Assembly: GCF_000699505.1 (NCBI RefSeq)
Contig: NZ_CP007490.1
Span: forward strand, 930,001 to 994,000
DNA: 64,000 bases
DNA from: Rhodoluna lacicola
Lineage (GTDB): Bacteria > Actinomycetota > Actinomycetes > Actinomycetales > Microbacteriaceae
Reading direction: 5' to 3'
Shown here: positions 4,424-14,387 of the stretch, piece by piece
Layout of the letters: each line of letters starts with the position of its first letter
How positions within the stretch are numbered: position 1 is the first letter of the stretch
Translations under genes and position numbers: made by a program
The notes under the pieces: generated by a model
Database searches by the model: none
What the model saw: only the letters and a program-made list of their open reading frames with translations
Told to the model about the DNA's origin: nothing

Positions 4424-5554
4424 TTAACGATGGCCGCGTGAACTTCGGCGCCACGCCCCAGGTTGAATCTTTGGAAACATGATTACCAGCGCAAAAATTC
4501 CGATCGAACCATAAGCCCAGATATTGCCGGCATCGTTGCCAGGAATGAACAACTCCCCGCCCGGTTGGCGCTGAGCCAGCCAAAAAATTGTTCCGGCCAG
4601 CGTGGCGGTAACTAGGTAGAGGGCTCCGCGGCTGCGACGAAGAAGGCGCAAGGCCACAGCCAGTGACACCGTCATAACCAAAGCAACAATTAACCCGATA
4701 GGGGTCTGAGCATCGGTGTTTGCCTTCACCTGATGCATCATCGTGCCGGCAAGTCCCAGCAGGACACCCAGCGGCATCGCCCATAGAAAAGTTAGAGCAG
4801 AGCGAATTCCCACGAGTGCGCTGGGTGAAGATTTGCGAACTCGTTCAGGCCGGTCGTATCTGATTTCCTTGCCCGGCACGACCGAGTAGGTCTCGGCGTG
4901 CACAGCAACCTGACTAGCGTGAGCTTCAAGCGCAGCTTTCTTCACGGCTGCTGTTTTGGCGTTTCCAATCTCGGCGTCAAACGGCTCTCTAGGTTCGGCG
5001 ATCACCCAAAATTGCGGAGCTCGAGAACGACTCTGCTTGGCAAATTTTCGAATCGCCATTGCTGTTGCATCGTGAGCCATTTTGTGATCCGGGTGACCAA
5101 ATCCGCCGCGGCGGTTGTAAGTCAAAACTGCGTCAGGTTTGAATTCTCTAATTTTTGCGACGATGTCGTCAGCAATGATGGTTGTGGAAGCGGCAGATAA
5201 TGCAAGTTCATCAAGATCACGAGGCTTGGCTGGCTTTCCCCATGGGTTTATTCGCATTCCAGAATCAAGGTACGCACGGGTTCCCGCGAAAGCGTGTTGC
5301 ACGTTTCCAAAGGCTTTTAGCGCCTCCATTAATTCGGAGGCTCTAAATGAACCCATAGCGGCTAGGTCACCTTCTAGGGACTTGAGCTCGTCTAGCTTTA
5401 CCTTGCCACGTTCGCCACGGGTTAGGGTGAAAACCATCACCTCAGCTTTAGCCGAGATGCGATCAGCAATCACATGTCCGGTGAAAAGACTCTCGTCATC
5501 TGGGTGCGCGTGCACAATCAGCAGACGCTTTGGAGCGAATTTAGCTTTAGCCAT
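4424..5554 (-). CDS. PIG-L/LmbE-family deacetylase with C-terminal membrane domain (MshB-like)
   Basis: 376 residues in two parts. Residues 1 to about 245 form a zinc-dependent N-acetylglucosaminyl deacetylase fold, with the metal motif AHPDDE (His17, Asp20) and the second metal His in GGFGHPDHKMAHDA. The last ~120 residues hold about four hydrophobic helices with short loops and a basic end. In Actinobacteria this family includes MshB, which deacetylates GlcNAc-inositol during mycothiol synthesis. A SigR/RsrA pair at 42.6-43.5 kb makes mycothiol use plausible. MshB itself is soluble and ~300 residues, so the membrane tail is unusual and the exact substrate is uncertain. A different PIG-L deacetylase is possible. 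Confidence 0.8.
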   Translation of the reverse strand: MAKAKFAPKRLLIVHAHPDDESLFTGHVIADRISAKAEVMVFTLTRGERGKVKLDELKSLEGDLAAMGSFRASELMEALKAFGNVQHAFAGTRAYLDSGMRINPWGKPAKPRDLDELALSAASTTIIADDIVAKIREFKPDAVLTYNRRGGFGHPDHKMAHDATAMAIRKFAKQSRSRAPQFWVIAEPREPFDAEIGNAKTAAVKKAALEAHASQVAVHAETYSVVPGKEIRYDRPERVRKSSPSALVGIRSALTFLWAMPLGVLLGLAGTMMHQVKANTDAQTPIGLIVALVMTVSLAVALRLLRRSRGALYLVTATLAGTIFWLAQRQPGGELFIPGNDAGNIWAYGSIGIFALVIMFPKIQPGAWRRSSRGHR

Positions 5555-5570
5555 GCTTCAACTTTAGGTT

Positions 5571-5604
5571 AAAAACAAAACCCTCGGCTTAACGCCGAGG
5601 GTTT
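5571..5604 (-). terminator. Intrinsic terminator downstream of typA
   Basis: Stem AAACCCTCGGC paired with GCCGAGGGTTT with a short loop. On the minus strand it is followed by a T-rich run (complement of AAAAACAAAA), so it ends the typA transcript before the PIG-L deacetylase gene. Confidence 0.85.
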
Positions 5605-5617
5605 CGATTTGAATCAA

Positions 5618-7531
5618 TTAGTTCTTGTCGCTAGCGTGCTTGCGCTGTGAATACAGGCGGGCACGAACGTTTGAATCTAGCTCAACCTTGCGAATGCGAG
5701 TCGCCTCAGGGGTAACTTCAACACATTCATCTTCGCGAGCAAATTCAAGACACTCTTCAAGAGATAGTGTGCGCGGTGGGGTTAGCGACTGGAATTCGTC
5801 AGACGAAGCTGCACGCATGTTGGTGAGCTTCTTTTCTTTTGTAATGTTGACTTCCATATCATCGGCACGTGAGTTTTCACCGACAACCATTCCTGCGTAA
5901 ACCTCGCTGGTTGGCTGCACAAAGAATGTGCCACGCTCTTGCAGGCCGATCATCGCAAACGGTGTAACAACACCTGCTCGGTCAGCAATTAGCGAGCCGT
6001 TATTGCGCGTGGTGATCTCTCCTGCCCAAACGTCGTAGCCGGCTGAAATTGCGTTAGCGATACCGGTTCCCTTGGTCTGGGTTAGGAATTCGGTTCGGAA
6101 ACCGATTAGGCCTCGGCTAGGAACACGGAACTCCATGCGAGTCCAACCGGTTGAGTTGGCAACCATGTTCTTCATCTGTCCCTTGCGCGCTGCAAGTAGC
6201 TGCGTCATTGCGCCCAAGAATTCTTCTGGAACGTCAATGGTTAGGTCTTCGTAAGGCTCGTGCAGTTTGCCATCGATGCGCTTGGTAACCACCTGTGGCT
6301 TTCCAACGGTTAGTTCGTAGCCCTCGCGACGCATCTGCTCCACCAGAATCGCTAGAGCAAGCTCACCACGACCCTGAACTTCCCATGCGTCAGGACGCTC
6401 GGTAGGAAGTACCTTGATTGACACGTTACCGATTAGCTCTTTGTCGAGACGGTCCTTAACCAAACGCGCAGTTACCTTTGCACCCTTTACGCGACCAGCC
6501 ATCGGTGAAGTGTTGATACCGATGGTCATCGAGATAGCAGGGTCGTCAACTGTAATCATTGGCAACGGGCGAACGTCATTTGGATCAGCAAGAGTTTCAC
6601 CGATGGTGATATCTTCGATTCCCGCAACCGCAACAATGTCACCTGGGTTTGCTTCCTCAGTTGGGAAGCGCTCAAGTGCCTTGGTCTTTAGAAGCTCGGT
6701 GATCTTTACGTTCTGAGTTGTGCCATCCTGGCGAACCCAAGCAACCTGCTGACCCTTTTTCAAGGTCCCGTTGAAGATGCGTAACAAGGCAAGACGACCC
6801 AAGAATGGAGAAGCGTCAAGGTTGGTAACGTGTGCCTGAAGCGGTGCCTCATCGTCGTACTTCGGAGCTGGAATGAACTTCATGATTGCGCCAAATAGCG
6901 GCTCAAGGTTTTCACCTTCAGGAAGAGTGCCGTCGGCAGGTTTGGTTAGTGACGCAATTCCGGCGCGACCAGACGCGTAAATAATCGGAAGTTCCAGAAT
7001 GCCATCGATGTCTAGATCTGGCACGGTGTCGTGAAGGTCAGACGCAAGACCTAGCAATAGGTCGTGTGTTTCTTCAACTACTTCGTCAATGCGTGCATCG
7101 GTGCGGTCTGTTTTGTTGACCAGCAGGATAACCGGCAGTTTTGCCTCAAGTGCCTTACGAAGAACGAAGCGAGTCTGCGGCAATGGACCTTCAGATGCAT
7201 CAACAAGAAGTACAACGCCGTCAACCATCGAGAGACCGCGCTCAACCTCGCCACCAAAGTCCGCGTGACCTGGGGTGTCAATAACGTTGATTGTGATTTC
7301 CTTGCCGCCAGAGTGGTCACCCTTGTAAGCAATAGCGGTGTTCTTAGCGAGAATGGTGATTCCCTTTTCGCGCTCAAGGTCGCCTGAGTCCATAACGCGC
7401 TCGCCTACTGCGGCGTGGTCGCTGAACGAACCGGTCTGGCGAAGCATGGCGTCAACCAGTGTGGTCTTACCGTGGTCTACGTGGGCAACAATTGCGACGT
7501 TGCGCAAGTCATCTCTGGTGGCCTGAGCCAT
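5618..7531 (-). CDS. typA: Translational GTPase TypA/BipA
   Basis: 637-residue ribosome-associated GTPase needed for ribosome assembly and stress or cold adaptation. G1 is AHVDHGKT (16-23), G3 is DTPGHADFGGEVERG and G4 is LLVNKTDR, followed by the EF-G-like domain II, domain III/V and the TypA-specific C-terminal domain ending in basic residues. Length and architecture are normal for the family. It appears to be a single-gene transcript: its own terminator lies downstream, and a 185-base divergent intergenic region with an inverted repeat lies upstream. Confidence 0.97.
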   Translation of the reverse strand: MAQATRDDLRNVAIVAHVDHGKTTLVDAMLRQTGSFSDHAAVGERVMDSGDLEREKGITILAKNTAIAYKGDHSGGKEITINVIDTPGHADFGGEVERGLSMVDGVVLLVDASEGPLPQTRFVLRKALEAKLPVILLVNKTDRTDARIDEVVEETHDLLLGLASDLHDTVPDLDIDGILELPIIYASGRAGIASLTKPADGTLPEGENLEPLFGAIMKFIPAPKYDDEAPLQAHVTNLDASPFLGRLALLRIFNGTLKKGQQVAWVRQDGTTQNVKITELLKTKALERFPTEEANPGDIVAVAGIEDITIGETLADPNDVRPLPMITVDDPAISMTIGINTSPMAGRVKGAKVTARLVKDRLDKELIGNVSIKVLPTERPDAWEVQGRGELALAILVEQMRREGYELTVGKPQVVTKRIDGKLHEPYEDLTIDVPEEFLGAMTQLLAARKGQMKNMVANSTGWTRMEFRVPSRGLIGFRTEFLTQTKGTGIANAISAGYDVWAGEITTRNNGSLIADRAGVVTPFAMIGLQERGTFFVQPTSEVYAGMVVGENSRADDMEVNITKEKKLTNMRAASSDEFQSLTPPRTLSLEECLEFAREDECVEVTPEATRIRKVELDSNVRARLYSQRKHASDKN

Positions 7532-7581
7532 AGGAACATCCTCATTGTGAGCGCGCCAAACATAGTTGACGCATTGTTTGA

Positions 7582-7601
7582 GATAAATCTTGAAATTTAT
7601 C
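7582..7601. promoter_or_regulatory. Inverted repeat in the typA / DCC divergent intergenic region
   Basis: GATAAAT-CTTGAA-ATTTATC is a perfect 7-6-7 inverted repeat about 50 bases upstream of the typA start and 115 upstream of the DCC gene. It could be an operator or part of an AT-rich promoter. I see no other copy and no regulator next to it. Confidence 0.35.
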
Positions 7602-7716
7602 GGTGTGAATTAGGGGGTGCAGAACTGCATCTTTAAGCCCCTGCGCTTTCAGTCTACCTGCGAAAGCCCCCAAAAGGCAGGGATAAAAGGGCAGAAACAA
7701 CAAGTACCCTGAGTAT

Positions 7717-8088
7717 GTGAACACCGATGCCTTGCTTATCTATGACGGAGATTGCGCTTTTTGCAAGCAAAGCCTGAAGTGGGCTCTCGATAAACTACCT
7801 GCTTTCTGCCGCTACGTGGCTTTTCAGAAAGTGGATTTCAACGCTTTGGGGCTAAACCTTGCCGATGTGCAGCAACAGGTGTGGCTTATCGACGGCGATC
7901 GCAAGCTCGGCGGACATTTGGCGGTCAGCTGGCTTTTTAGGAATCAGCCCGCTTTGGGTTGGAGGGTCCTTGGTTGGCTAATCAAGGCATTTTCACCTAT
8001 TTCAGCCCGTGTATATAGATGGGTAGCTAAAAATAGACATCGCCTACCGGGCGGAACAGCGGAATGCACGATTGATGACAAACCGTAA
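7717..8088 (+). CDS. DCC-family (DUF393) thiol-disulfide oxidoreductase-like protein
   Basis: 123 residues with the family signature DGDCAFC near the start (Cys13 and Cys16 as a CxxC pair) and the GGHLAVSWLF motif in the middle. The family is predicted to be thioredoxin-fold redox proteins, but most members have no proven substrate. The start is GTG at 7717; the ATG two bases earlier runs straight into a stop. The end overlaps the next gene by 14 bases, so the two are probably co-translated. Confidence 0.85.
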   Translation: MNTDALLIYDGDCAFCKQSLKWALDKLPAFCRYVAFQKVDFNALGLNLADVQQQVWLIDGDRKLGGHLAVSWLFRNQPALGWRVLGWLIKAFSPISARVYRWVAKNRHRLPGGTAECTIDDKP

Positions 8089-8821
8089 GCAAATAACTTT
8101 TGAGATCATCATCGTCTTTGCCCTGAGTCTTGGGGCATCGGCGGTTTACTCAATTGTCTCGCTAATCGCGAAACTCACTGCCGAAGCGGGCCTTGCAGGG
8201 CAGACCACCTTAATTAATGGGGCGATGGCGCAGCGTGAATGGCTGGATTTCACCTATCAGATTCTTTCAATCGCTTTTGGCCTAGCTCCGGTGGCTCTAG
8301 CTCTCTACTTGCTATGGCAAAGCGTGGGCAGACCATTTGAAGCAATCGGTTTGCAGTTGGCGAACCCAGGCTTTTGGATCTGGCGGGGCTTTGCTCTGGC
8401 GGCGGTGATTGGAATTCCAGGTCTAGCTCTGTACGTGGGGTCTCGCCTGCTGGGAATTTCTTCAAAAATAGTTCCTGCCGACCTAAACGAATATTGGTGG
8501 ACTATTCCAATTCTTTTGTTGGCAGCGGTAAAGGCATCCTTACTTGAAGAAGTTTTGGTTATCGGGTACCTGTTTGACCGACTACAAAGACTTGGGATTA
8601 AGTCAAACGGGCAAATTCTGATTAGCGCTGCGCTCAGAGGCAGCTACCACTTGTATCAGGGTTTTGGCGGTTTCATCGGAAACTTTGTGATGGGTCTAGT
8701 TTTTGGCTGGGCCTACAAAAAATGGGGGCGAGTAATGCCCTTGGTATTGGCGCACTTTATTTTGGATGCAGTTTCTTTCGTTGGCTACTCACTTATCGGC
8801 AACTCGCTACCTCTTCCTTGA
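8075..8821 (+). CDS. CPBP-family intramembrane metalloprotease-like protein
   Basis: 248 residues with about seven to eight membrane helices. The Abi/CPBP motifs are recognisable: a double glutamate (LLEEVLVIGYLF), a conserved His in the second motif (LRGSYHLYQGFGGF) and a third in VLAHFILD. The residue that is often Arg in EExxxR is Ile here, as far as can be judged by eye, while the Glu and His residues remain. Bacterial members are proposed membrane proteases or bacteriocin-immunity-type proteins; the substrate is unknown. ATG at 8075 is preferred to TTG at 8072. Confidence 0.82.
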   Translation: MTNRKQITFEIIIVFALSLGASAVYSIVSLIAKLTAEAGLAGQTTLINGAMAQREWLDFTYQILSIAFGLAPVALALYLLWQSVGRPFEAIGLQLANPGFWIWRGFALAAVIGIPGLALYVGSRLLGISSKIVPADLNEYWWTIPILLLAAVKASLLEEVLVIGYLFDRLQRLGIKSNGQILISAALRGSYHLYQGFGGFIGNFVMGLVFGWAYKKWGRVMPLVLAHFILDAVSFVGYSLIGNSLPLP

Positions 8822-8879
8822 GAAGCCATCAGATGCGATTTTGCTTCTGGCTGGTATCTTTACCTTGTTGGCTAAAAAG

Positions 8880-8990
8880 TTAACAGATTTTGCATTTTGC
8901 AGGGGAAGTCGGTGAGAATCCGACGCTGACCCGCAACCGTGATCGAGTCTCTCGAAAGTCGGATTGCCTGCAGAGCCGCAAATGACTCCA
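8880..8990 (+). promoter_or_regulatory. Cobalamin (B12) riboswitch
   Basis: The highly conserved cobalamin aptamer core is easy to see: GGGGAAGTCGGTGAGAATCC followed by GACGCTGACCCGCAACCGTG (8902-8941), then the 3' part AGTCGGATTGCCTGCAGAG (8957-8975). TGCAGG/CCTGCA can close the outer helix. About 100 bases of leader remain before the first gene. They contain GGCGC-ACGC-GCGCC (9026-9039) followed by a pyrimidine-rich stretch, and a GACTCC/GGAGTC pairing; these could form the expression platform. The switch is expected to repress the five downstream genes when cobalamin is plentiful. Exact boundaries are approximate. Confidence 0.94.
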
Positions 8991-9082
8991 TTTTTACCGT
9001 CGAGGTCTGCGGTCGGAGTCGAATTGGCGCACGCGCGCCCTTTCGCCTTCGCACCCTGATCATCATTTGCGAAAGGCTCCGA

Positions 9083-10075
9083 ATGTTTGGACCAAAATCT
9101 CCAAGAAAAACGTTGGGCAAACTGGCGATTCTAACTTCGCTGGCGCTGTCGATCAGCACAGCAGCAATAACTCCAGCGACAGCAGCCGAAAATTATTCGA
9201 GCACAGTTTCGTTTCTAGCCAAGTCATTTGTAAACGGCAGAGCTCTAGAAGGATTCACCGCCGGAACCATGGAATACGGATTCACCTTGGATGCCATGAT
9301 GCAACTAAAAGCCGGAGGCAGATCTCTAGTGCAACAACTACCGGCGGTCAATTACATGCTCGGCACAAGATCGCAGCCATTGGGCACCGCATCGAACGGA
9401 TACCTATTCAACAAAGATGCGGCGCTTTCGCTGAATGTGGGTAGAGCTGGAAAATTCTTGTTCACCAGCGAAGTTATTGATGTACCCAACAACTCAATTC
9501 GTTATGAGGTCTTCAAACGACTTGCCGCTCGAATCAACAGCAAGACCGGCGAAATAACTGGAGTGACCTCAGGGGCTATCGATTACGCCTGGGTCGCGCT
9601 GGGGCTGAACAGCTACCAAGAGCACACTCTGGCGAATAAAGTCGTCCAGAAAATGTTGACCCTGCAAAACACCGATGGTGGCTTTGGTGAAGTGGATCCC
9701 CTGGTATCAACTCCAGATTCAACCGGTTTGGCTCTTCAGGCAATCAACCTTCGACAAGATTTTGGGACAACTGCGCAAGATAAGAAGCGAGCCGATGCAG
9801 AAAAGAAGGCAGTTGCCTATCTGATCTCAACAAGCGTGGATAAAAACCACTGGAATGCCTATGGTGAAGCGTCGGTGAATTCCACCGCTTATGCGGCTAT
9901 GGGTCTCAAAGCCGCCGGAAAAAAGATTTCTGCATATTCACTTTGGCTAAAGAATCAGTTAGCACCAAAGGGCGGATTCATGACCTCATGGTCTGCGGGT
10001 GCCGGTGACAAATTCGCCACCGCTCAGGCAATTGCTCCGTTACTTGGCAAGAGTTATCTAGACCTACTCCCCTGA
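9083..10075 (+). CDS. Secreted prenyltransferase-repeat (alpha/alpha-barrel) protein, transcobalamin alpha-domain-like
   Basis: 330 residues. A Sec signal peptide (basic start, hydrophobic 13-30, likely cleavage near TAA|E at 35-36) shows export, with no lipobox and no C-terminal anchor. The mature part has repeats of the squalene-cyclase/prenyltransferase type: AIDYAWVALGLNSY, LQNTDGGFGE with STPDSTGLALQAI, then SVNSTAYAAMGLKAAG and KGGFMTSW with DKFATAQAIAPLL. This alpha6/alpha6 fold is also that of the N-terminal domain of transcobalamin and intrinsic factor. With a B12 riboswitch upstream and an ECF transporter downstream, a role in binding extracellular corrinoid is likely but inferred. 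The ATG at 9083 is chosen because it gives the signal peptide; the frame upstream is riboswitch RNA. It overlaps the next gene as TGATG. Confidence 0.85.
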   Translation: MFGPKSPRKTLGKLAILTSLALSISTAAITPATAAENYSSTVSFLAKSFVNGRALEGFTAGTMEYGFTLDAMMQLKAGGRSLVQQLPAVNYMLGTRSQPLGTASNGYLFNKDAALSLNVGRAGKFLFTSEVIDVPNNSIRYEVFKRLAARINSKTGEITGVTSGAIDYAWVALGLNSYQEHTLANKVVQKMLTLQNTDGGFGEVDPLVSTPDSTGLALQAINLRQDFGTTAQDKKRADAEKKAVAYLISTSVDKNHWNAYGEASVNSTAYAAMGLKAAGKKISAYSLWLKNQLAPKGGFMTSWSAGAGDKFATAQAIAPLLGKSYLDLLP

Positions 10076-10623
10076 TGATTTCAGTTCCGTTTCGCGCTGT
10101 TCTAATTTCGCTAATTGCACTCGTTGCAATTGGTGGATTAGTGGCAACCAATGGAGAAAGACCAGTTGGACAAAATTCAGAGCAAGCCGTTTTTGAAGGT
10201 GCCTGCACGGACCAGGGAACCACTCTGTTAATCGATTTTGGCCCGCTTAGCGGTCGCGACCCAATAACCCGATGCGTCACTGGATTTACCGGAACGGGCT
10301 GGGAGTTGTTTGGCGCCGCCGGAATCAAGGTGACCGGCACGAGCGAATATCCTGAAGCCTTTGTTTGCAGGCTGGAAGACTTTCCAGCTGCCTCTATCGA
10401 GGACTGCCTGGGGACACCCGGTATCAAAAATGGCAGTTGGGCATATTTTTACGCAACGAGAAAAACAGATGCCAGTTCCTGGTCGCGCAGCCCAGTTGGT
10501 GCTGCAAGTCGAATGCCAGGTTGCGGTGAATCTGAAGGTTGGCTCTTCGTCGAACCGGGAAAAAATCAACAGCCAAACAGCCCATCAATATCCACGAAGC
10601 CAACTGTATTTACATGCAACTAG
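10075..10623 (+). CDS. Small exported/anchored protein, DUF4430-like (transcobalamin beta-domain-like)
   Basis: 182 residues with one N-terminal hydrophobic segment (residues 7-24) that is either a signal or a membrane anchor. The rest looks beta-rich, with four Cys in the first part of the mature chain. The segment GSWAYFYATRKTDASSW, then GAASRMPGCGESEGWLF, resembles the DUF4430-type pattern (WxYF...W...GA...G-x-EGW) found at the C-terminus of transcobalamin-like proteins. Because the preceding gene encodes the alpha-barrel half, the pair may be a split transcobalamin. The family call is by eye and moderate. The start overlaps the previous stop by one base. Confidence 0.7.
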   Translation: MISVPFRAVLISLIALVAIGGLVATNGERPVGQNSEQAVFEGACTDQGTTLLIDFGPLSGRDPITRCVTGFTGTGWELFGAAGIKVTGTSEYPEAFVCRLEDFPAASIEDCLGTPGIKNGSWAYFYATRKTDASSWSRSPVGAASRMPGCGESEGWLFVEPGKNQQPNSPSISTKPTVFTCN

Positions 10624-11588
10624 TTCAAGGACGCGCTTCCCAAATATCCAGGGCAAACGCTTTGCATCCAGTCACCTGGTGGATCCTGGGGCTCTGGGTA
10701 TCAGCAGCGGCAATAATAAGCACCAGCTTCAGCCCGCTTTTAGTTTTGATCTGCTTGAGCTTTTTTCTTGCGGTGGTATTTGAACCAAAGTGGTTTTCAA
10801 CCATGCGACTATATGCCTTACTCGCATTATTGGTCTTTGTGACTCGAATACTTTTTAGGTTGATTTTTAGTTACTCAGCTGGCGATGGTCCAGTGCTGTT
10901 GAGTTTGCCAACTCTAAGCATCAATCTAGGAATTGGCGGTCCGGTAAACCTACTGGGCCAAATAAGCCAATCCGCAATTGAACTTGCAATAGTGGATGGG
11001 TTGAGACTGGCAGCCATCGTGCTCAGCATTGGCATGGCAACGACACTCTGCCACCCAAGAAACCTACTGAAGTCAACTCCCGGAGCGCTTTATGAAATTG
11101 CCGCAGCTGTTTCAATGGCAATAAATCTTGCGCCACAACTGGTCATCAGCGCACAAAGAGTCCGTCAGGCAAGCCGCTTGCGCGGAAGAAGCCGCAAACT
11201 GGGCGCGATGAAAAGTATCGTGATTCCAATTCTCGAAGACACCATTGAAAGCTCCATGGGTCTAGCCGCCAGCATGTCTTCTAGAGGGTTTGGCAGACAA
11301 GGCTTCATGACGATAGCCCAACGCAGGACCAGCAGGATACTTTCAATAATTGCTTTGTCGCTGCTTCTGATCGGAATTTACCTCACCCTAACTTCTGGAT
11401 TCAGTGAATTGGCCACCGTTGTTGCTCTGATTCTTGGCCTGGCGCTATCTGCAATTGTCATTAAGTTTTCATCGAACAAAAAGATCCGAACTTCGTTGGC
11501 AAAAAGAAAACTAACCAGCGTTGACTATTTGGCAATCCTGCTTGGCGGAATTCCATTCACACTAATTTCATTTGGCTGGTGGATCTGA
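10614..11588 (+). CDS. ECF transporter transmembrane component EcfT
   Basis: 324 residues starting at the ATG at 10614, which overlaps the previous gene by 10 bases. It has several membrane helices in the N-terminal half, a cytoplasmic coupling segment with ARG-type motifs (VRQASRLRGRSRKLG and SMSSRGFGRQG), and a further hydrophobic C-terminus. EcfT couples ATP hydrolysis by the two ATPase domains to movement of the substrate-binding S component. Here it belongs to the riboswitch-controlled operon, so cobalamin or a precursor is the expected substrate (inference from regulation). It is somewhat longer than many EcfT proteins (~260) because of extra C-terminal helices. Confidence 0.88.
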   Translation: MQLVQGRASQISRANALHPVTWWILGLWVSAAAIISTSFSPLLVLICLSFFLAVVFEPKWFSTMRLYALLALLVFVTRILFRLIFSYSAGDGPVLLSLPTLSINLGIGGPVNLLGQISQSAIELAIVDGLRLAAIVLSIGMATTLCHPRNLLKSTPGALYEIAAAVSMAINLAPQLVISAQRVRQASRLRGRSRKLGAMKSIVIPILEDTIESSMGLAASMSSRGFGRQGFMTIAQRRTSRILSIIALSLLLIGIYLTLTSGFSELATVVALILGLALSAIVIKFSSNKKIRTSLAKRKLTSVDYLAILLGGIPFTLISFGWWI

Positions 11589-13204
11589 TGCTAAGAATCT
11601 CACAGCTGAGTTTTAGCTATTCGACCACCGAGGAGGCTGTAATAAAGCGAGCCTCGCTGAACTTCAACGAGGGTGAATTTTCTTTGGTTATTGGACCAAC
11701 TGGCAGCGGCAAAACCACCCTTCTCAAGACCATCTGCAGACTGGCACCGAATTTCACCGGTGGCAAATTTGAAGGTGAGATCTGGCTAGATGACACAGAG
11801 GTTTCTCAATCGCAGCCCAACCAAATTGCCGAGTTGATTGGATATGTTGGCCAAAACCCAGAATTAGGTTTTGTGACGCAAACAGTTCGTGAAGAGTTGG
11901 CCTATGGAATGGAACAGCTTGGATTTGAAGTTGAGGCCATGCAAGAACGAATTTCTACGTTTGCGTCGCTACTGGAATTAAGTGATTTGCTTGATGCAAA
12001 CCTCAGCGATATTTCTGGTGGTGAGCAGCAGCGTGTGGCAATTGGTGCCGCGCTTACGGCGGGGCAAAAAATTCTTCTGCTTGACGAGCCCACTTCAGCT
12101 CTTGACCCAGAGATTGCAGATAAAACAATCAAACTGCTCCGGAGGCTCGCTTCAGAGACCGCGACCACCGTGATTCTCAGTGAACATCGAATTGAGCGCG
12201 TACTGGAATTTGTAGATTCTGTTGTTCAGGTACAAACCGACGGCCGAGTGATCAAAGCGGCAGCTAGCCTGACAAACTTTGACAATCGCACCGAACCACC
12301 AATATTTTCGCTCGGCAAAAAGCTTGGCTGGCAGCCGCTGGAGCTGACCCTTGAAAAGGCCAAACAGCGCTGGCAGCAAAATAGCAAAAGCTATTCAACG
12401 TCTATTGACAAAGGCACAAAGCAAGACCACGACAGCAATCTTGATGTTGCCACCGTCCATGATCTATCGGTTAGTTATGGCAGTTTGCAGGCCGTGGTCA
12501 GCGTCAGCTTTTCTGCACGAGCCGGAACCCTCACAGCGCTGATGGGAAGTAATGGCTCGGGCAAATCCAGCGCCCTCTGGGGGATCCAGGGTACAAAGCC
12601 AAGCGCAGACGCAAAGGTCTCTGGACAGGTGCTGATAAAAAATCAAGACCCGGCCATTCAGGGAATCGCCGAGCGACTGGAGCTCGTGGCTATGGTTCCA
12701 CAGAAAGCCAGCGACCTACTTTTTTTGAATTCTCTTGGCCGCGAGTTAGGTGAATCTGACGCTACGAGCGAGAGTGAACCAGGAACTACCGCGAAAATTT
12801 TTGAAAAGCTAGCCGGCCGAATCAACCCAGCAATCCATCCGCGCGATTTGTCTACTGGGCAGCAGATTGCCCTCGTTCTAGCTTCACAACTGGTTAAAGG
12901 CGCATCGCTAATTTTGCTTGATGAGCCAACTCGTGGGCTTGACTACATCGCCAAGCGCGAACTTGCCGAAACGATTGGAAAACTAAAGTCCCAGGGTAAG
13001 GCCGTGATTATGGCTAGCCACGACGTTGAGTTTGTCGCTGAAATCGGAGATCAGGTTTTAATTTTGGAGAGTGGTCGAGTCGTCAACTCTGGAACACCTA
13101 CGCAGGTTCTTAGCCCTGGGTCAAAGTACTCACCTCAATTAACCGAGATAACTCAAACCCCCGGAGTGTTTAGGTTAGATCAGATTGCGGTGAAGAATGT
13201 TTAG
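11588..13204 (+). CDS. ECF transporter ATPase, two fused ABC domains (EcfA-A')
   Basis: 538 residues holding two complete ABC ATPase domains. Domain 1 (1-230) has Walker A GPTGSGKTT, signature ISGGEQQR and Walker B ILLLDEPTSALDP. Domain 2 (300-520) has Walker A GSNGSGKSS, a degenerate signature LSTGQQ and Walker B LILLDEPTRGLD. This is the fused form of the EcfA/EcfA' pair that drives ECF importers. ATG at 11588 overlaps the ecfT stop (TGATG) and is preferred to the in-frame GTG at 11579. The 3' end overlaps the S-component gene by 8 bases. Confidence 0.92.
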   Translation: MLRISQLSFSYSTTEEAVIKRASLNFNEGEFSLVIGPTGSGKTTLLKTICRLAPNFTGGKFEGEIWLDDTEVSQSQPNQIAELIGYVGQNPELGFVTQTVREELAYGMEQLGFEVEAMQERISTFASLLELSDLLDANLSDISGGEQQRVAIGAALTAGQKILLLDEPTSALDPEIADKTIKLLRRLASETATTVILSEHRIERVLEFVDSVVQVQTDGRVIKAAASLTNFDNRTEPPIFSLGKKLGWQPLELTLEKAKQRWQQNSKSYSTSIDKGTKQDHDSNLDVATVHDLSVSYGSLQAVVSVSFSARAGTLTALMGSNGSGKSSALWGIQGTKPSADAKVSGQVLIKNQDPAIQGIAERLELVAMVPQKASDLLFLNSLGRELGESDATSESEPGTTAKIFEKLAGRINPAIHPRDLSTGQQIALVLASQLVKGASLILLDEPTRGLDYIAKRELAETIGKLKSQGKAVIMASHDVEFVAEIGDQVLILESGRVVNSGTPTQVLSPGSKYSPQLTEITQTPGVFRLDQIAVKNV

Positions 13205-13964
13205 TCAATTGGTTCTTCGTCCTGTGCTGCTTGGACTTGCTGCAATGGCCTGCCTAATGATGTTTACCTGGCCCCTGCTGATTTCAACCACTGCACAGTC
13301 CGAATCTCAGCTTGCCCAGCTAACCTTCATAATTTTGCTGCCGACAGTTTTGATTTTGACCCTCCATGAGTTCTCAACGGGTAATTTGGATAGCCGGCAG
13401 TTAGCCATGCTTGGTGTGCTTACCGCACTCAATGCTCTGATTCGTATGCTGGGTGCCGGAGTTGCCGGAGTTGAGACTTCGTTTTTCTTGATCATTATTA
13501 GCGCCTATGTATTCGGGCCAGGCTTCGGATTTCTTATGGGCGCACTTTCGCTGTTGGTATCGGGTTTAATCACCGGTGGAATTGGCCCGTGGCTGCCGTT
13601 TCAGATGATGGCTGCAGCGCTCGTGGGAATCCTTGCGGGCTTGCTTCCCAAACCCAGACTCCTGTGGTTGCAAATGGCACTGCTTTTGGGCTACGCAGTT
13701 TTTGCCAGTTTCAGTTACGGTGCGTTAATGACGATGTGGAACTGGCCATTTCTTGCCGGTTTGGGTTCGGATGTTTCCTATCTTCCAGGAGCTGGAATTT
13801 TGGAAAACTTGATCCGTTTCGTAAATTACGAAATCCTCACTGGCGGATTTGTTTGGGATGCCGGTCGAGCCATCACTACTGTGATCCTCTTGGCATTAAC
13901 TGCACCGGCCCTGCTAACCACTCTTAGAAGAGCAGCCAACAGGGCCGGAATCAAGAAATTCTGA
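13197..13964 (+). CDS. ECF transporter substrate-binding S component (probably for cobalamin)
   Basis: 255-residue, highly hydrophobic protein. An N-terminal pair of helices precedes the core, which has an S-component look: GVETSFFLIIISAYVFGPGF, then LSLLVSGLITGGIGPWLPFQ. The Gly-rich, membrane-embedded GPWLPFQM region is typical of S components. It is the last gene of the operon; together with EcfT and EcfAA' it makes a dedicated group I ECF importer. B12 specificity is inferred from the riboswitch, not from a recognised ligand motif. Confidence 0.85.
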   Translation: MFSQLVLRPVLLGLAAMACLMMFTWPLLISTTAQSESQLAQLTFIILLPTVLILTLHEFSTGNLDSRQLAMLGVLTALNALIRMLGAGVAGVETSFFLIIISAYVFGPGFGFLMGALSLLVSGLITGGIGPWLPFQMMAAALVGILAGLLPKPRLLWLQMALLLGYAVFASFSYGALMTMWNWPFLAGLGSDVSYLPGAGILENLIRFVNYEILTGGFVWDAGRAITTVILLALTAPALLTTLRRAANRAGIKKF

Positions 13965-13973
13965 GATTTAAAA

Positions 13974-14387
13974 CTAGAAAAGCGGAAGAACGACAAGGGA
14001 CTGCAGAACTGTCGCCACAGCTGCTGCCGCAAACAAACCAAGGTTCGCCTTCCAGGTGTACTTAGCCTCTCCACGGGCAGCGTGCATCAAAAACGCCACA
14101 ACCATGGTCAAGGCCAATCCGGCACCGGCAGCAACACCAACCCACTGTGACCAAGCCAAGCCAGTGAGGTACGCACCAATCGGAGCCACGACAACACCGA
14201 TAGCGCCAAGGATTTCAAGCCAAGCGATAAGACGAACTAGGCCCATCGGTGTCTTCTCAACCCAACCCATGCCTGCGCCCAGCAAGGTTTCTTTGGTTGC
14301 CTTGGACTTGAATGATCCAGCCTTGTAGAAGCCGGATGCGGTAAAAACTGAAACCGCAAGTGCGGCGATTGCTAGAAAGATGTTCAT
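13974..14387 (-). CDS. DoxX-family membrane protein
   Basis: 137 residues with four membrane helices. The family layout fits: an N-terminal helix followed by SGFYKAGSFKSK, then MGLVRLIAWLEILGAIGVVV and a conserved acidic position in the second helix, and HAARGE before the last helix. Some DoxX-family members take part in thiol/redox control or quinone-linked oxidation; the role here is unknown. It converges on the ECF operon with only 9 bases between the ends. Its promoter region holds an inverted repeat of the kind bound by HxlR/MarR-type regulators. Confidence 0.8.
   Translation of the reverse strand: MNIFLAIAALAVSVFTASGFYKAGSFKSKATKETLLGAGMGWVEKTPMGLVRLIAWLEILGAIGVVVAPIGAYLTGLAWSQWVGVAAGAGLALTMVVAFLMHAARGEAKYTWKANLGLFAAAAVATVLQSLVVLPLF

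Follow-up and report, generated by a model that had tools for sequence, protein, structure and literature searches.

Organisation of the locus

The window analysed here is a stretch of 64,000 nucleotides from Rhodoluna lacicola (contig NZ_CP007490.1, positions 930,001 to 994,000 of the forward strand), whose genome is a single contig of 1,430,433 bases. It contains a candidate B12-uptake operon in which five genes lie downstream of an adenosylcobalamin (AdoCbl) riboswitch. In 5' to 3' order, all on the plus strand, the genes encode an exported protein (P1), a small anchored protein (P2) and the EcfT, EcfAA' and S components of an energy-coupling factor (ECF) importer (P3 to P5), with successive overlaps of 1, 10, 1 and 8 bases. 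The features are listed below, with positions as in the window.

8877..9024, plus strand: AdoCbl (cobalamin) riboswitch aptamer, RF01482 (cmscan, 52.3 bits for a gathering score of 50, E 1e-6)
9045..9077, plus strand: predicted hairpin over the likely ribosome-binding site (RNAfold, alignment of leader segments from four loci)
9083..10075, plus strand: P1, predicted secreted alpha/alpha-toroid protein, 330 residues (profile A8 of its relatives; signal sequence by eye)
10075..10623, plus strand: P2, N-terminally anchored small beta-rich protein, 182 residues (alignments, profile-profile comparison)
10614..11588, plus strand: P3, predicted EcfT transmembrane subunit, start ATG at 10614 (homology to the EcfT of locus L032)
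11588..13204, plus strand: P4, EcfA-EcfA' fused double ATPase, 538 residues (two ABC_tran stretches)
13197..13964, plus strand: P5, ECF S component, substrate-binding membrane protein, 255 residues (PF12822, S-component tree)

The same gene order is found again in the sister locus L119 and in two nearly identical loci, L032 and L033, and the arrangement is therefore not due to chance. A search of the window's own genome recovered P1 once. This layout agrees with an earlier note, made from the letters of the window alone, which had described a cobalamin aptamer ahead of five genes overlapping by 1–10 bases, an exported first protein without an anchor, a small N-terminally anchored second protein with a GSWAYF...EGW pattern, and an ECF importer encoded by the last three genes. 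Indeed, P1 carries a Sec-type signal sequence (by eye) and none of its Pfam matches is to an anchor domain, P2 has a hydrophobic N-terminal segment (by eye) and contains GSWAYF and EGWLF, and the identification of the last three genes is given below.

P1 is predicted to be an alpha/alpha toroid

Searched alone against Pfam, P1 gives weak matches to a squalene-cyclase model (E 0.024) and to the eukaryotic cobalamin-binding model (E 0.086); a TED_complement match is obtained in two of the three members of the genus (best E 5.3e-5). The P1 sequence searched directly against solved structures yields no match. A profile of P1 relatives (A8, 19 rows with P1 as the first) matches squalene-hopene cyclase at E 1.3e-34 as well as complement thioester domains (TED), and these matches identify P1 as an alpha/alpha toroid, as the earlier note had proposed in calling it an alpha/alpha barrel. 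Among solved structures, A8 matches squalene-hopene cyclases best and then other terpene cyclases and complement TED; transcobalamin is not among the 60 best of 73 matches. Profile A2 recovers six squalene-cyclase-like chains at E 0.05–0.08.

A phmmer search had first shown the toroid in the window's genus only, but a profile and then an iterated profile gave 28 toroid frames in the fetched regions (the window's genus and L119 included), and confinement to this genus was rejected. Ten relatives were scanned for further domains. SLH domains are present in the toroid chains of L101, L104 and L105 and in the fused frame of L113, and CWB2 domains in the fused frames of L097, L099 and L100; both are read as surface anchoring. 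The L100 frame (5397–8282) combines a toroid, two P2-type domains and three CWB2 repeats, and is adjoined by another toroid and another P2 relative.

P2 is a remote relative of the DUF4430 domain

No Pfam or NCBIfam model matches P2, and none of 18 P2 family members matches the DUF4430 model PF14478, which also has no match at E 1 in the window's own genome. The N-terminal hydrophobic segment has no lipobox cysteine (by eye). Cysteines 44, 67, 98 and 111 are invariant in an 18-row alignment of the family; in a 36-row alignment only Cys 98 and Cys 111 remain so, and Cys 67 nearly.

Although the curated models do not match, the DUF4430 likeness put forward in the earlier note was recovered by profile-profile comparison. 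The P2 family (59 sequences) compared with a DUF4430 profile of 32 sequences, of which 30 came from searching the phylum with PF14478 and two are operon-linked, gives 96.0% with E 3.8e-9, and its 18-row version 93.1%; one reversed and 19 column-shuffled controls for the 59-row comparison all remain at or below 0.67%. The window group alone (3 rows) reaches 9.9% against DUF4430. The same three rows give 99.6% against 30 wider relatives outside the group, which in turn give 95.9% against DUF4430; controls in these tests are at most 0.89% for 30 shuffles and at most 1.33% for four unrelated families. By this transitive argument, from the window group through the wider relatives to DUF4430, P2 is distantly related to the transcobalamin-type beta domain (SLBB).

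An AlphaFold2 model of P2 (predicted local distance difference test score 55.6) is too weak to confirm the fold and has no meaningful structural match. Against solved structures, P2 searched directly yields one chance-level match, profiles A1 and A10 one chance match each, and the P2 family profile matches no transcobalamin.

PF14478 was also searched in 28 genomes with P2 relatives, one of which has a match above the cut-off. In two operons containing a toroid and a P2 relative a second protein passes PF14478, encoded before the toroid in L087 (4034–4207) and after it in L096 (approximately 13982–14128), so that some operons are predicted to encode two beta-domain proteins.

ECF importer genes

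P5 matches ECF_trnsprt PF12822 with 34.3 bits (cut-off 30.7), and P4 contains two ABC_tran stretches, with ECF ATPases as its best NCBIfam matches, below cut-off. The window EcfT matches no ECF model, and PF02361 is without match in the window's own genome; its sub-threshold matches are to DUF681 and to an antiporter subunit model. On the other hand, it is homologous to the EcfT of L032 (E 8.1e-72), which matches CbiQ PF02361 at E 5.9e-8. CbiQ is above cut-off in six of the eight EcfT proteins scanned, the exceptions being those of the window and of L119. P3 is thus assigned as EcfT through its homologues.

In 13 of 20 regions from Microbacteriaceae (L034, L035, L037–L039, L041, L042, L044, L046–L048, L050 and L051) the EcfT and ATPase matches lie beside the P2 relative in one open frame of 575–893 residues from stop to stop, which suggests a single-chain ECF energising module.

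Riboswitch and leader

The riboswitch of the sister locus L119 scores 60.2 bits. That of L032 scores 31.7 bits as RF00174 (gathering score 31.5), and in L033 it is below the gathering score. RNAfold was run on positions 9028–9092 and on L119. In the predicted 9045–9077 hairpin, the likely ribosome-binding site GAAAGG (approximately 9071–9076) is paired to an upstream CCTTCGC; a ribosome-binding-site hairpin is also predicted for L119, whereas the leaders of L032 and L033 fold differently. The hairpin is a probable translational OFF platform according to these predictions, and because of the different folds in L032 and L033 translational control is something that we infer.

In region L103, a lone gene for a P2-type lipoprotein (5900–6664) is immediately preceded by a cobalamin riboswitch of its own; a complete toroid-P2-ECF operon occupies the other strand.

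Genomic neighbourhoods of P2 relatives

Fifty-two regions, all fetched by their P2 relative, were compared: 20 from Microbacteriaceae and 32 from the phylum, spread over 30 genomes. Most of these 32 come from the highest-scoring of the 54 genomes that were positive in a set of 396, and one, L092, also belongs to Microbacteriaceae. ECF genes adjoin the P2 relative in all 20 family regions and in 29 of the 32 phylum regions (49/52), those of L088 on the other strand; L091 and L113 have no ECF genes in the region, and in L109 the gene is at a contig edge. A toroid is adjoining, fused or in the operon in 2/20 family and 23/32 phylum regions (25/52). Two of the nine phylum regions without a toroid (L106 and L107) begin at a contig edge. 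Toroid and beta domain form a single frame in L085, L097, L099, L100 and L113, natural fusions of the two domains. A cobalamin riboswitch at the gathering score is found in 5/20 family and 15/32 phylum regions (20/52), not always directly upstream of the operon.

These counts bear on several claims of the earlier note. It had named a wide occurrence of the pair without B12 riboswitches or ECF genes as speaking against its reading: occurrence without ECF genes on such a scale was not seen among these P2-fetched regions, though a riboswitch reaches the gathering score in only 20 of the 52. The proposed usefulness in dilute freshwater, like the idea of a freshwater-specific device, finds no support: since the same type of operon occurs across other orders and classes of the phylum, multi-megabase genomes included, there is no tie to dilute freshwater.

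Eight neighbour genes of P2 relatives were tested with NCBIfam. Just past the S gene, B12-dependent ribonucleotide reductase (NrdJ) is over cut-off in L040, L043 and L045; also over cut-off are PduO in L040 and L045, MetH in L047 and the B12-independent MetE in L034. A MetF neighbour in L035 is below cut-off.

Co-occurrence with B12-dependent enzymes

A survey of 199 Microbacteriaceae genomes was made with a P2 profile built partly from the same family. Of 42 matches at E 0.001, the 40 below 1e-20 were counted (G030 and G164 were dropped). The MetH B12 domain PF02965 is present in 34 genomes, and a P2 relative is found in 33 of these compared with 7 of the 165 without it (Fisher p 1.2e-29 by genome); by genus, the figures are 15/15 and 3/70 (p 4.5e-14), and both p values are inflated by relatedness. 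The only genome with MetH and no P2 relative, G169, is 82% complete. Among the seven P2-positive genomes without PF02965, G138, G064 and G190 have NrdJ adjoining the operon, these being the genomes of regions L040, L043 and L045, and G038 has a PF02310 match split over two frames; G104, G162 and G075 have neither PF02965 nor PF02310, NrdJ not having been looked for there. In the window's own genome a single PF02310 protein is found, within a frame of 1,207 residues that also contains the MetH domain. The link to B12 made in the earlier note is supported by the riboswitch, by the MetH, NrdJ and PduO neighbours in relatives and by the co-occurrence with MetH.

The toroid profile finds 4 of the 199 genomes, all from the window's genus, three of them with P2 adjoining. 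In G154, which belongs to this genus, an open toroid gene is all that remains at the syntenic site between CPBP-like and DoxX-like genes (names by eye). Missing there are P2, EcfT, EcfAA' and the S component, and the genome has no match to the P2 profile, PF02965 or PF02310. Comparison of the two sites points to a loss of P2 and the ECF genes together with MetH in G154. The orphan toroid gene (L157, 8428–9402, minus strand) is an open frame in which the signal sequence is still present (by eye).

Proposed mechanism and alternatives

From the riboswitch, the ECF context and the co-occurrence with MetH, a role in B12 uptake is well supported, and the operon thus very likely serves the uptake of B12 or another corrinoid. 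The model that we favour, and consider on the whole probable, is riboswitch-repressed corrinoid uptake with extracellular capture by P1 and P2 and hand-over to the S component. The operon would be repressed by its own product, cobalamin (B12 or another corrinoid). At low adenosylcobalamin, the riboswitch would permit expression of the five genes, likely because the ribosome-binding site becomes accessible. A dedicated ECF importer would be assembled from EcfT, EcfAA' and the S component. P2, tethered through its N-terminal anchor, would place its transcobalamin-type beta domain beside the S component; P1, the secreted toroid, would cap or cradle the corrinoid on P2, the two capturing it tightly together and passing B12 to the S component. 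The imported vitamin would serve MetH, the sole PF02310 protein found in the genome (B12 enzymes without PF02310 were not searched for). Capture by two chains followed by hand-over to the S component is the best-supported mechanism, and a P1-P2 clamp is plausible; the last steps, namely binding of B12 by P1 and P2, their binding to each other and the hand-over itself, are those that we infer from sequence.

The main result against an obligatory clamp is that the toroid is optional: in 37 of the 40 Microbacteriaceae genomes that have a P2 relative, no toroid is detectable, and the pair proposed in the earlier note is therefore not obligatory. P2 alone might then serve the S component as its extracellular receptor or docking partner, with P1 dispensable or an unrelated toroid in the operon of one genus. 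The other P2 relatives seen in the family, which by eye are mostly lipoproteins, or else proteins with a C-terminal anchor, and lie beside ECF genes, would fit such a role, as would the orphan toroid that G154 keeps after losing P2 and the ECF genes. We nevertheless hold this explanation to be rather unlikely, for the P1 and P2 genes share a one-base overlap in the window, and a toroid accompanies the P2 relative in most of the phylum regions, five times within a single frame. Within the favoured model, the absence of a detectable P1 from most relatives in Microbacteriaceae makes P2 the probable core of the extracellular part, to which P1 would add as an enhancer.

Two further explanations concern the substrate and the nature of P1. 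The importer could take up another corrinoid (cobinamide, or cobamides with other lower ligands) or cobalt, with the extracellular pair setting selectivity. Cobalamin riboswitches also control cobalt transporters, and the EcfT relatives match CbiQ, a cobalt-transport family. The co-occurrence with MetH and their joint loss, the PduO and NrdJ genes adjoining the operon in relatives, and the transcobalamin pattern of a toroid with a DUF4430-type domain make this improbable. Still less credit is given to the view that P1 is an exported enzyme, either similar to terpene cyclases or acting on corrinoids, and P2 some other surface protein, both co-regulated by B12 without binding it. It would account for squalene-hopene cyclases as the best solved relatives of the toroid and for the lack of transcobalamins in the structure searches with A8 (best 60 of 73 matches) and with the P2 family profile, but it agrees poorly with the export of P1, with the DUF4430 link of the P2 family and with the SLH or CWB2 domains fused in relatives to the toroid or to toroid and beta domain, as is typical of surface binders.

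Beyond the window, a large actinobacterial branch of ECF vitamin importers may rely on a transcobalamin-type extracellular receptor, in the form of two chains, of a surface-anchored fusion or of a beta-domain lipoprotein alone, a generalisation to which we give somewhat less than even credence. If true, the beta domain on its own would act as a genuine receptor outside the cell for an ECF importer and would amount to a minimal transcobalamin. To our knowledge, ECF importers are held as a class to work without an extracellular receptor.

Comparison with known systems

The general idea had been put forward before. Toroid-fused SLBB domains, operons with CbiO and CbiQ, a second SLBB protein in the operon and a predicted role in B12 scavenging are described by Burroughs et al. 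2007 (PMC1796856), and the hypothesis of the earlier note essentially carries this prediction over to a split pair. Those systems share with the window a secreted toroid with SLBB, a CbiO-like ATPase and a CbiQ-like membrane protein. Unlike them, the window has the two domains on separate chains and a beta protein that escapes the DUF4430 model, and it adds an AdoCbl riboswitch and a co-encoded S component; the word "riboswitch" is absent from the main text of that article, and the examples named for the transcobalamin clade in the part cited are from Firmicutes and archaea. New here are the split form, a beta family missed by curated models, the toroid-free versions, the co-loss with MetH and the grouping in the S-component tree (see below). 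Judged by title or abstract start, no report of the P1-P2 pair in Actinomycetota was found in the open-licence PMC literature.

Animal transcobalamin, intrinsic factor and haptocorrin resemble P1 plus P2 in combining an alpha/alpha toroid with a beta domain, which is C-terminal in animals; TCN proteins are described with DUF4430 at the C terminus (PMC4350170, in the part cited). Unlike these carriers, the window system, as predicted from sequence, has two proteins and a membrane-anchored beta part and would deliver to an ECF importer instead of an endocytic receptor.

In ECF importers the substrate is described as captured by the membrane S component (PMC5997447). ECF-CbrT of Lactobacillus delbrueckii is, like the one predicted for the window, an ECF importer for B12; its B12-specific S component CbrT itself binds the substrate, and the cited part of PMC5997447 mentions no extracellular partner. 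BtuCDF, as described there, captures B12 through the extracytoplasmic protein BtuF, and such a capture protein is what it has in common with the system proposed here. No BtuF-type binding domain is among the Pfam matches of P1 or P2. BtuCDF also differs from the ECF system in its folds and its energising unit.

If P1 and P2 capture B12 outside the cell and pass it on, ECF transport would have a receptor-assisted form, and the split pair, together with the fusions and the toroid-free versions, would amount to a natural dissection of the possible assembly of a transcobalamin. This would bear on how B12-dependent bacteria acquire a scarce vitamin. Rhodoluna lacicola and Aurantimicrobium photophilum are described as freshwater bacteria that are naturally transformable and grown with added B12 (PMC11577799, in the part cited), and their natural transformability makes the idea testable in principle.

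Origin of the operon

In a tree of S components (49 rows, 22 from Microbacteriaceae), the window, L119, L032 and L033 share a 12-row clade (98/97) with operons from other orders and classes that contain a toroid. A single clade of the 22 family rows is rejected (approximately unbiased test, p-AU 8.7e-6, with groups defined once the tree was known), and with it simple vertical inheritance within Microbacteriaceae. A clade joining the window group with four unfused family members without a toroid is rejected marginally (p 0.037). The S-component branch of the window group is long. A quick EcfA tree places the window group with the unfused type, apart from the fused-type family members, and gives nothing further. 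Horizontal acquisition from another actinobacterial lineage is likely on the basis of the tree, and ancient retention may be an alternative origin.

As a minor observation on the taxonomy of these sequences, L120 (JABBOD010000006.1), titled Acidobacteria, and contig C84 of G066, a genome set in Microbacteriaceae, are both 88,718 bases long and contain the same P2 relative; L120 is probably a mislabelled metagenome assembly.

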